Shown here one piece after another: positions 19,550 to 22,270 of a stretch of 64,000 bases of DNA. Where the stretch lies: positions 1 through 64,000 of the forward strand of contig SVDU01000003.1 in assembly GCA_015057705.1 (NCBI GenBank), written 5' to 3'. A model generated the notes under the pieces. The model made no database searches. It saw nothing but the letters and a program-made list of their open reading frames with translations, and had not been told where the DNA came from. A program made the position numbers and the translations under genes. Within the stretch, counting starts at the first letter, position 1; every line of letters starts with the position of its first letter. The DNA comes from Paenibacillaceae bacterium. GTDB lineage: Bacteria; Bacillota; Clostridia; Lachnospirales; Lachnospiraceae.

Positions 19550-19900
19550 TTAATTACCCATAATCTGGGCAATCATACGATTGGGCAGGCAGACAATGCT
19601 TTCCCCTGTCTGTTCAATTGTGCCCTGATGGATACAGATTTTATCGGGGCAGGTTGCATCGGAGACGTACACCTTTCCGCCTTGAATTACTATGCGGTTG
19701 GTTCCACCCTGATATCCGTTTACTAAAATCTCTGTATCATGGTTCAGATCCAGCTTTTCAACAACTTTTCCATCTACCGTGATCTCAAGATATCTGGCAG
19801 GCTTTGAAAAAATGATCTTGTTCACAATGAGTAGAATGCAGGATATTGCTACAATAATAACAATTAATATGACTTCTTTCTTATGCTTTTTAATTTCCAT
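19550..19900 (-). CDS. NusG domain II-containing protein (EetA-like)
   Basis: Membrane-anchored protein of 116 residues: TM helix at about 10-27, then an extracytoplasmic NusG-domain-II fold with ITVDGKVVEKLDLNHD, RIVIQGGKVYVSDATCPDKICIHQGTI and ESIVCLPNRMIA. Three cysteines (in CPDKIC and VCLPN) are conserved in this family. Such genes commonly sit beside FMN-binding and Gx-transporter genes; in Listeria-type flavin-based electron-transfer loci a similar protein is called EetA. Here it is divergent from the FMN-binding protein, with the Gx gene behind that. Function in electron transfer is inferred from neighbours. It converges on degV with four bases between them. Confidence 0.85.
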   Translation of the reverse strand: MEIKKHKKEVILIVIIVAISCILLIVNKIIFSKPARYLEITVDGKVVEKLDLNHDTEILVNGYQGGTNRIVIQGGKVYVSDATCPDKICIHQGTIEQTGESIVCLPNRMIAQIMGN

Positions 19901-20083: not shown

Positions 20084-21640
20084 ATGAATAAAAGTAACGC
20101 AAATGCTAAACGAAATGGATTTATTGGGTTAGGAGCCATGATTTTACTGGCTGGCGCTACTGTTTTTGGAACAGATCCACTTTATAAGGCGATTGACAAC
20201 AGTGTTAGACCCGAAATCTATGTTCCGGGTACCTATACAGGTACTGCGAGAGGCTACGGCGGGATTGTCACCGCAGAAGTAACAGTATCAGGAAAGACCA
20301 TTGACTCTATTGTTGTAAATGGAGAGAAGGAAACCCTGCTCAATATGGTATTGCCAGGGTTAACGGATTCCATACTTGGAAAGCAGTCCACAGAGGTGGA
20401 TGCAGTTTCCGGAGCAACGCTTAGCAGCAATGCCATAAAGGAAGCAGTGGACCAGGCTCTTGCCAAGGCAAGGGGAGAAAAGCCGGAAGATGAGACGGAG
20501 ACAACAGAAGAGGTATCTGAGACTTCCGCTTCTTTAAAGGATGGAACCTATACTTATGAATCACCGGAATTTGATGAGAACGGTTTCAAAGACCAGGTTA
20601 GTATGACTGTTAAGGGGAATGCAATTACAGCACTTACCTGGGACTGCATAAAGGAAGATGGAACCAAAAAGAGCCAGCTTTCCATGGATGGAAAGTATGT
20701 AATGACCGAGAAAGGTCCCAAGTGGCATGAACAGGCAGAAGCAGTGGTAGGTTATGTTTTAGAGCATCAGTCACTGGACGGATTGGTGAATGAAAAAGGA
20801 TATACCGATTCCGTATCCTCTGTCAGCATTAACTTAATGGGCTTTGTAAACGGCGTAAAAGACTGCTTAAACCAGGCCGCCGGTGAAGGTGAGAGCCCGG
20901 CAGCTGCGTTAAAAGAAGGAACCTATACTTACGAATCACCCAAGTTTGATGAGAACGGTTTCAAAGACCAGGTGAGTATGACTGTTAAGGGGAATGCAAT
21001 TACAGCCCTTACCTGGGACTGCATAAAGGAAGACGGATCCAAAAAGAGCCAGCTTTCCATGGATGGAAAGTATGTAATGACTGAGAATGGACCGAAGTGG
21101 CACGAACAGGCAGAAGCGGTTGTGGGCTATGTACTGGAACACCAGTCTTTAGAAGGCCTTGTGAATGATAAAGGTTATACCGATTCCGTATCCTCTGTCA
21201 GCATTAACTTAATGGGCTTTGTAAACGGCGTAAAGGATTGTTTAACTCAGGCATCCAGTGAAGGAAAAAGCCAGGCATCAGAGTTAAAAGAAGGAACCTA
21301 TACTTACGAATCACCGGAATTTGATAAGAACGGATTTAAAGATCAGGTGAGTATGACTGTTAAGGGAAATGCGATTACAGCTCTTACCTGGGACTGCATA
21401 AAGGAAGACGGTTCCAAAAAGAGCCAGCTTTCCATGGACGGAAAGTATGTAATGACCGAGAAAGGTCCCAAGTGGCATGAACAGGCAGAAGCAGTGGTGG
21501 GTTATGTTTTAGAGCACCAGTCGCTGGATGGATTGGTGAATGAAAAAGGTTATACCGATTCCGTATCATCTGTCAGCATCAATTTAATGGGATTTGTTAA
21601 CGGAGTGAAAGACTGCTTAACCCAGGCGTCAAAACAGTAG
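20084..21640 (+). CDS. membrane-anchored FMN-binding protein with three degenerate FMN-binding repeats
   Basis: Extracytoplasmic flavoprotein of 518 residues. A TM helix or signal anchor is at about 12-29. Domain 1 (about 47-130) is a canonical FMN_bind domain with the flavinylation motif DAVSGAT (106-112), Thr112 being the expected site of covalent FMN transfer by an ApbE-type enzyme. An acidic linker (131-150) leads to three repeats of exactly 125 residues starting at 154, 279 and 404. Each keeps the fold's landmarks (GTYTYES, GFKDQVSMTVKGN, a WHEQAEAVVGYVLEHQ helix) but reads DSVSSVS where the motif should be, leaving Ser248, Ser373 and Ser498 at the acceptor position. Each repeat has two cysteines. 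It resembles PplA-type electron carriers. A terminator follows. Confidence 0.85.
   Translation: MNKSNANAKRNGFIGLGAMILLAGATVFGTDPLYKAIDNSVRPEIYVPGTYTGTARGYGGIVTAEVTVSGKTIDSIVVNGEKETLLNMVLPGLTDSILGKQSTEVDAVSGATLSSNAIKEAVDQALAKARGEKPEDETETTEEVSETSASLKDGTYTYESPEFDENGFKDQVSMTVKGNAITALTWDCIKEDGTKKSQLSMDGKYVMTEKGPKWHEQAEAVVGYVLEHQSLDGLVNEKGYTDSVSSVSINLMGFVNGVKDCLNQAAGEGESPAAALKEGTYTYESPKFDENGFKDQVSMTVKGNAITALTWDCIKEDGSKKSQLSMDGKYVMTENGPKWHEQAEAVVGYVLEHQSLEGLVNDKGYTDSVSSVSINLMGFVNGVKDCLTQASSEGKSQASELKEGTYTYESPEFDKNGFKDQVSMTVKGNAITALTWDCIKEDGSKKSQLSMDGKYVMTEKGPKWHEQAEAVVGYVLEHQSLDGLVNEKGYTDSVSSVSINLMGFVNGVKDCLTQASKQ
20543..21637 (+). repeat. three in-frame tandem repeats, 375-base period
   Basis: Copies begin at 20543, 20918 and 21293 with identical spacing of 375 bases (125 codons). 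They are nearly identical in DNA, differing mostly at third positions and in the linker around each junction, which suggests recent duplication or gene conversion. Confidence 0.95.
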
Positions 21641-21754: not shown

Positions 21755-22270
21755 ATGATTAAAAAGAAATCGGCACACATGGCCGCACTTTACGGAATGC
21801 TGATTGCACTTGCCTTTGTTCTCAGTTTTGTTGAAAGTCTCATTCCTATTTCCCTGGGCATTCCGGGAGTAAAACTGGGACTGGCAAATCTGGTGACTGT
21901 TGTGGGTCTTTATACGGTTGGAACCACAGGAACCGTAGTCGTTTCTCTTCTTAGAATCGTGTTGACAGGATTTACGTTTGGTAACTTATTTGCCATGCTC
22001 TACAGCCTGGCTGGCTGGGGGCTGAGCATTGTCATTATGATTCTTTGTAAAAAAAAGAAATGGTTTGGAACTTCGGGAATCAGTATCCTTGGGGGGATCG
22101 GTCATAATATCGGACAGATTACGGTTGCGGCATTTGTGGTAAAGCAGGCGGGGGTATTCTTTTATCTTCCAATGCTGTTAATAGCAGGTACGGCAGCAGG
22201 ACTTGTCATTGGAATACTGGGGGCTATGATTATCAGCAGAATTAAAATTGTTATAAAAAAATTGTATTAA
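21755..22270 (+). CDS. Gx transporter family membrane protein (EetB-like)
   Basis: Membrane protein of 171 residues with about five hydrophobic helices and the family segment ESLIPISLGIPGVKLGLANLVTVVGLY (about 24-50), often annotated as heptaprenyl diphosphate synthase component I. There are no prenyl-transferase DDxxD motifs, so an enzyme role is unlikely; the fold resembles ECF S components. Similar genes accompany NusG-II and FMN-binding genes, and in Listeria-type electron-transfer loci the counterpart is EetB. AAAGGAG precedes the ATG. It sits after a terminator and so probably has its own promoter. A quinone- or flavin-related role is inferred. Confidence 0.8.
   Translation: MIKKKSAHMAALYGMLIALAFVLSFVESLIPISLGIPGVKLGLANLVTVVGLYTVGTTGTVVVSLLRIVLTGFTFGNLFAMLYSLAGWGLSIVIMILCKKKKWFGTSGISILGGIGHNIGQITVAAFVVKQAGVFFYLPMLLIAGTAAGLVIGILGAMIISRIKIVIKKLY

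Follow-up and report, generated by a model that had tools for sequence, protein, structure and literature searches.

The 64,000-nucleotide window analysed here (contig SVDU01000003.1, positions 1 to 64,000) contains, at 20084..21640 on the plus strand, an open reading frame (ORF) for a 518-amino-acid protein consisting of an N-terminal anchor, a flavin mononucleotide (FMN)-binding domain of the FMN_bind family and three serine-type repeats of that domain, here termed V-type. Residues 12-30 form a hydrophobic stretch (20117..20173, plus strand, as for all features of this protein) that is a probable membrane anchor, and no lipobox is present in the N-terminus. Domain 1 (PF04205; residues 57-126, 20252..20461; the whole protein scores 64.9 bits in Pfam against a cut-off of 22) carries the canonical ApbE motif as given in PMC12052999, DAVSGAT, at residues 106-112 (20399..20419), with Thr112 as the acceptor. 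Repeat 1 (residues 149-273, 20528..20902), assigned by sequence comparison and a predicted model, and repeats 2 (residues 274-398, 20903..21277) and 3 (residues 399-518, 21278..21637), assigned by sequence comparison, each carry the variant motif DSVSSVS, at residues 242-248 (20807..20827), 367-373 (21182..21202) and 492-498 (21557..21577), with Ser248, Ser373 and Ser498 at the acceptor position. The gene lies between two others: a divergent EetA-like gene for a NusG_II (PF07009) protein at 19550..19900 on the minus strand (Pfam, 102.6 bits), PF07009 being the family to which we take EetA to belong, and an EetB-like gene for a PF07456 protein at 21755..22270 on the plus strand (Pfam, 131.8 bits).

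The repeats begin at residues 149, 274 and 399, a spacing of exactly 125, and the last is 120 residues long; any two of them share 110-111 of 120 residues and, at the DNA level, 308-319 of 360 bases. All six cysteines of the protein lie within them, as pairs 188/261, 313/386 and 438/511. The ORF sequence thus bears out the layout in the original prediction: DAVSGAT with Thr112 in domain 1, three 125-residue repeats with DSVSSVS, and two cysteines in each repeat with none in domain 1. Tested against the ApbE motif D-x-x-[S/T]-G-A-[S/T], domain 1 conforms and the repeats do not; they keep the Asp and the terminal hydroxyl, and have Ser for Gly and Val for Ala.

Profile searches and structure prediction had been proposed as checks on the fold of the repeats, and they gave different answers. 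None of the three repeats, searched alone, matched PF04205 in Pfam at the gathering score, and in the whole protein only domain 1 was recognised as FMN_bind; the same profile gives 29.6 bits (cut-off 22) for L149, a V-type relative. By contrast, an AlphaFold model of repeat 1, built on an alignment of related domains, has a predicted local distance difference test (pLDDT) score of 94.2, and its best structural matches in the PDB are FMN_bind structures, in agreement with the claim that the landmarks of the FMN-binding fold are kept. In a phmmer search of repeat 1 against PDB sequences, 2kzx was found at 4e-19, with DAISGAT aligned at the motif, and a profile built from 56 domains, whose alignment also underlies the repeat 1 model, found 2kzx at 1e-31 and 3o6u at 1e-10. 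Below the threshold of the NCBIfam PplA model (NF041941, cut-off 325), the window protein scores 99.5 bits and repeat 1 33.9 bits. The sequence, profile and structural matches together identify the repeats as FMN_bind domains overlooked by the Pfam profile. Membership of an unrelated domain family is ruled out by the 2kzx match and the structural matches of the repeat 1 model.

Homologous domains were collected with a profile built from the window's repeats, which biases the sample towards similar domains. From 269 aligned stretches, 143 distinct domains from 74 loci were retained after removal of duplicates, contained fragments and stretches shorter than 95 residues, a limit that also removed canonical domain-1 pieces. 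The counts rest on fetched loci, at most the best 30 per search, and include several close relatives, so they do not represent 143 independent events. A hydroxyl residue occupies the acceptor position in 143/143 domains (Ser in 114, Thr in 29), and the motif Asp is retained in 142. At motif positions 6-7, VS occurs in 114 domains, AT in 26, VT in two and CT in one; AS does not occur. Judged from these alignments, Val-Ser replaces Ala-Thr as a coupled unit. One Trp and one Lys are common to all 117 V-type domains (117/117). The flavin-stacking position is aromatic in 110/117; it is Asn in the other seven, which are the seven GVS-type repeats of a 1,047-amino-acid protein (L093, 5395-8535) whose gene adjoins ApbE. 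A stacking Tyr is known from SaFMN3 and CbFMN4 (PMC10339131); its equation with the aromatic column of the V-type domains is our own reading of the alignments.

A tree of these domains, based on few columns and with correspondingly rough support, places all 26 GAT domains on one side of a branch with 100/99 support and nests the two VT domains among VS domains. The glycine-free form seen in the window requires at least two changes, one for a clade of 50 domains that includes the window's and another for four repeats of L085. A cysteine pair is present in 50/54 glycine-free V domains versus 2/89 glycine-containing ones (both in L088), and the Ser and Asp of the motif are retained in all 54 glycine-free domains.

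The repeat domain is not a chance feature, given its recurrence across genomes. Of the 25 genomes searched in the genus, 17 contain it and an 18th matches weakly (E 3e-4). In the family, which we take to be Lachnospiraceae, 34 of the 397 genomes sampled have it at E < 1e-20, and 12 more give weak values (E 7e-6 to 8e-4). In the phylum, presumably Bacillota, 55/398 genomes have any match, many of them GAT-type or partial. A tblastn search of repeat 1 against plasmids gave no match. The closest named relatives of the window protein are mostly from Lacrimispora (L. xylanisolvens, L. defluvii; 95-96% in the best segment), and some genomes labelled Hungatella or Paenibacillaceae hold equally close ones.

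The ratio of non-synonymous to synonymous substitution rates (dN/dS) among the three repeats is 0.04-0.08, indicating strong purifying selection. In comparison with the relative L070, for which dS is near saturation, values of 0.097 (V1), 0.075 (V2) and 0.096 (domain 1) were obtained; several other comparisons yielded no value. Repeats and domain 1 are under equally strong selection. Random decay is ruled out by these ratios and by the acceptor hydroxyl and Asp kept across domains. The motif change common to the three copies had been called fixed, and this view is supported. The description of the domains as degenerate is not supported, in view of the retained hydroxyl and Asp, selection equal to that on domain 1 and the existence of 15 relatives with V-type domains only (V-only). 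These results indicate that the repeats are not decayed and constitute a conserved FMN_bind sub-family that probably anchors flavin on Ser instead of Thr.

Gene neighbourhoods of the relatives were examined over 6 to 16 kb, in some cases up to a contig end. A neighbour was labelled ApbE, Rnf or Eet when phmmer matched it to a gene from the window's genome or from another fetched locus; these labels were checked with Pfam at L153, L156 and L149 only. The V-only set comprises 15 complete proteins; L098, at a contig end, and the split genes L111 and L015/L032 were excluded. In the latter (L111 in G057, L015/L032 in G013) the repeat gene is divided into separate ORFs, by an interruption or an assembly fault. 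ApbE lies in the region of seven V-only proteins (L080, L148, L149, L153-L156), and in all of these except L080, that is 6/15, ApbE follows the V-only gene directly and in the same orientation. EetA/EetB-like genes are near 7/15, and ApbE or Eet-like genes near 10/15. At L153 (genome G466) the genes following the V-V protein are, by Pfam, ApbE, NusG_II and PF07456. G466 and G803 both encode ApbE and have no match to PF04205, PF03116 (RnfD/NqrB) or PF12682 (Flavodoxin_4), which leaves the V-type protein as the sole candidate ApbE substrate found in them among the families searched; among nine genomes with V-only proteins, two have no PF04205 match although ApbE is present.

Other relatives resemble the window locus. 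L109-L112, with both Eet-like neighbours, combine an anchor and domain 1 with two to five V domains. L086, L097 and L113, between EetA- and EetB-like genes, encode an anchor and one V domain with no domain 1, and the N-termini of L086 and L113 are very similar to that of the window protein. Twenty proteins (L079, L081-L085, L087, L088, L090, L092-L096, L101-L105 and L108) have an F-V(n)-F architecture, in which the first FMN_bind part has no recognised motif and a canonical C-terminal motif is present in 18; ApbE is in the region of 16 and RnfC- or RnfD-like genes in that of 15. At L154 and L155, the gene for a three-V-domain protein, which has a lipobox in L154, is flanked on both sides by ApbE genes, with an EetA/EetB-like pair between. 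L089 (5033-7741) encodes 903 amino acids in which a single ASVS V-type domain precedes five FMN_bind domains of GAT type, in a neighbourhood with ApbE and EetA/EetB-like genes. L150 (7627-8079) has a single V-like domain with the motif DAVTGCT, in which a Cys stands beside the acceptor Thr.

Taken together, the fold, the conservation, the coupling of Ala-Thr and Val-Ser, the selection, the neighbourhood and the ApbE linkage of V-only proteins make it probable, though well short of certain, that the protein is a membrane-anchored multi-flavin electron carrier in which ApbE flavinylates all four domains, three of them on serine. The protein would be an anchored, extracytosolic carrier of the PplA/FMN-bind1 kind. 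Domain 1 would take FMN on Thr112, and, with the motif altered in the repeat sub-family from D-x-x-[S/T]-G-A-T to D-x-x-[S/A]-[G/S/T]-V-S, ApbE encoded elsewhere in the genome (two matches, neither on the window's contig) would attach FMN to Ser248, Ser373 and Ser498. The downstream EetB-like subunit may supply flavin adenine dinucleotide (FAD), and a row of as many as four flavins could pass electrons outward from the membrane. We infer export, serine flavinylation, including that of the window's glycine-free SSVS form, and electron transfer with its direction and acceptor; the electron-transfer role is taken from the family. Listeria EetB is a FAD-binding export ECF-S (energy-coupling factor S) subunit required for PplA flavinylation, and PF07456 is used as the eetB family (PMC9973259). 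ApbE accepts serine, and single Gly-to-Ala, Ala-to-Val and Thr-to-Ser changes lower flavinylation without abolishing it (PMC12052999). The coupled Val-Ser change with its kept hydroxyl reads as a re-tuned ApbE site. This tolerance of serine, the coupling and the improbability of non-covalent binding lead us to expect four covalent flavins, three on serine.

Several observations weigh against this interpretation. Replacement of the motif Asp by Ala has only minor effects in a model ApbE substrate (PMC12052999), which makes conservation of this Asp less telling than it seems, and three simultaneous motif changes may be harder for ApbE to tolerate than single ones. The weakest step is that from ApbE-linked GVS proteins to the window's SVS form: the V-only proteins adjoining ApbE are of GVS or GVT type, and ApbE is absent from the fetched region of the four glycine-free V-only loci (L086, L091, L097, L113), three of which have EetA/EetB-like neighbours. 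Five of the 15 V-only loci (L091, L106, L150, L151, L152) have neither ApbE nor EetA/EetB-like genes, and L099 and L100, which combine domain 1 with GVS-type V domains, likewise have none in the region. The negatives in G466 and G803 are limited in that DUF2271, DUF3570 and FMN_red were not searched and the PF04205 profile itself misses V-type domains. Because ApbE and PF04205 proteins occur in 57/57 genomes tested, eight of them with no strong V-type match, ApbE presence across genomes offers no contrast and was dropped as a test. The full-length AlphaFold model, built on an 11-row alignment, has a pLDDT of only 46.5 and was set aside. Finally, PplA is reportedly not needed for ferric reduction in Enterococcus faecalis (PMC9864754), and deletion of Listeria eetA gave no phenotype (PMC9973259).

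The original prediction offered serine attachment, non-covalent binding and a spacer role side by side; the first is now best supported and the other two less so. Non-covalent binding of FMN in a retained pocket would accommodate the kept fold, the aromatic stacking position and the departure of the repeat motif from the printed consensus. We regard it as unlikely since in its apo form the related domain NqrC scarcely binds free FMN (PMC4348036); moreover, an unbonded flavin would escape outside the cell, and Ser or Thr at the acceptor position in 143/143 domains has no obvious reason without a bond. We give equally little credence to a loss of flavin from the glycine-free repeats, which would then act as thiol-disulfide carriers or disulfide-braced modules through pairs 188/261, 313/386 and 438/511. 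The cysteine pair does track the glycine-free form, but a single clade holds 50 of the 54 glycine-free domains, so the association possibly reflects one or two events; the retained Ser and Asp in all 54 and the FAD-export type of the neighbouring gene also speak against it. Flavin-free spacers holding domain 1 off the membrane or across the wall would explain why tandem copy number varies between related genes; this is more improbable still, because L086, L097 and L113 contain no canonical domain and hence nothing to space, and conservation falls at pocket positions. Of similarly low probability is a mixed wire, in which domain 1 carries covalent FMN and the cysteine-paired glycine-free SVS repeats partly serve as thiol-disulfide electron carriers; if true, it would mean that the FMN_bind fold has been converted to other redox chemistry within one protein.

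Should serine instead be the anchor in a serine-flavinylated carrier, the ApbE motif would be broader than printed, the coupled swap of Ala-Thr for Val-Ser would cleanly test which features ApbE recognises, and the flavin counts of such carriers would rise, here from one to four. Searches with the Pfam FMN_bind profile and GA-type motifs can miss the Val-Ser sub-family.

The original prediction regarded the carrier design as undescribed. This does not hold for the multi-domain arrangement, as multi-flavinylated FMN_bind proteins are already known (PMC8238504, PMC11334425, PMC10339131, PMC12052999); it stands for the Val-Ser acceptor, of which a search by title and abstract, not covering subscription papers or preprints, found no description among the papers listed. 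No paper was found combining SGVS with ApbE, or flavinylation with Lacrimispora. The PplA/cAD1 orthologs analysed in PMC7074142 are all reported to have one or two SGAT motifs. PplA has domains of the same type, to judge from the sub-threshold matches, and its Listeria extracellular electron transfer cluster also has a PF07456 neighbour, as at the window locus, where an extracytosolic location is probable. The window protein differs in its score of 99.5 bits against the cut-off of 325, a hydrophobic anchor in place of the lipobox, Val-Ser for Ala-Thr in the repeats, an additional PF04205 domain and an ApbE gene off the contig. The closest solved folds to the repeats, 2kzx (A3DHT5, Clostridium thermocellum) and 3o6u (CPE2226, Clostridium perfringens), have DAISGAT and DVITGAT aligned at the motif, unlike DSVSSVS; both are called apo in PMC4348036, and 3o6u is called flavinylated in PMC11334425. 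Domain 1 resembles that of CbFMN4 (8p2b, E 2e-11); SaFMN3 and CbFMN4 have DxxxGAT motifs with Thr attachment in the solved domains (PMC10339131), whereas three of the four domains here have SVS. The circularly permuted FMN-bind1 proteins (PMC11334425) are resembled by the twenty F-V(n)-F relatives, which contain V-type domains; the window protein is not permuted, and its domain 1 has its own motif. With more than one FMN-binding domain, domain 1 by profile and the repeats by fold, it shares with the multi-flavinylated proteins of PMC8238504 and PMC10339131 the arrangement of several FMN_bind domains in one anchored protein.
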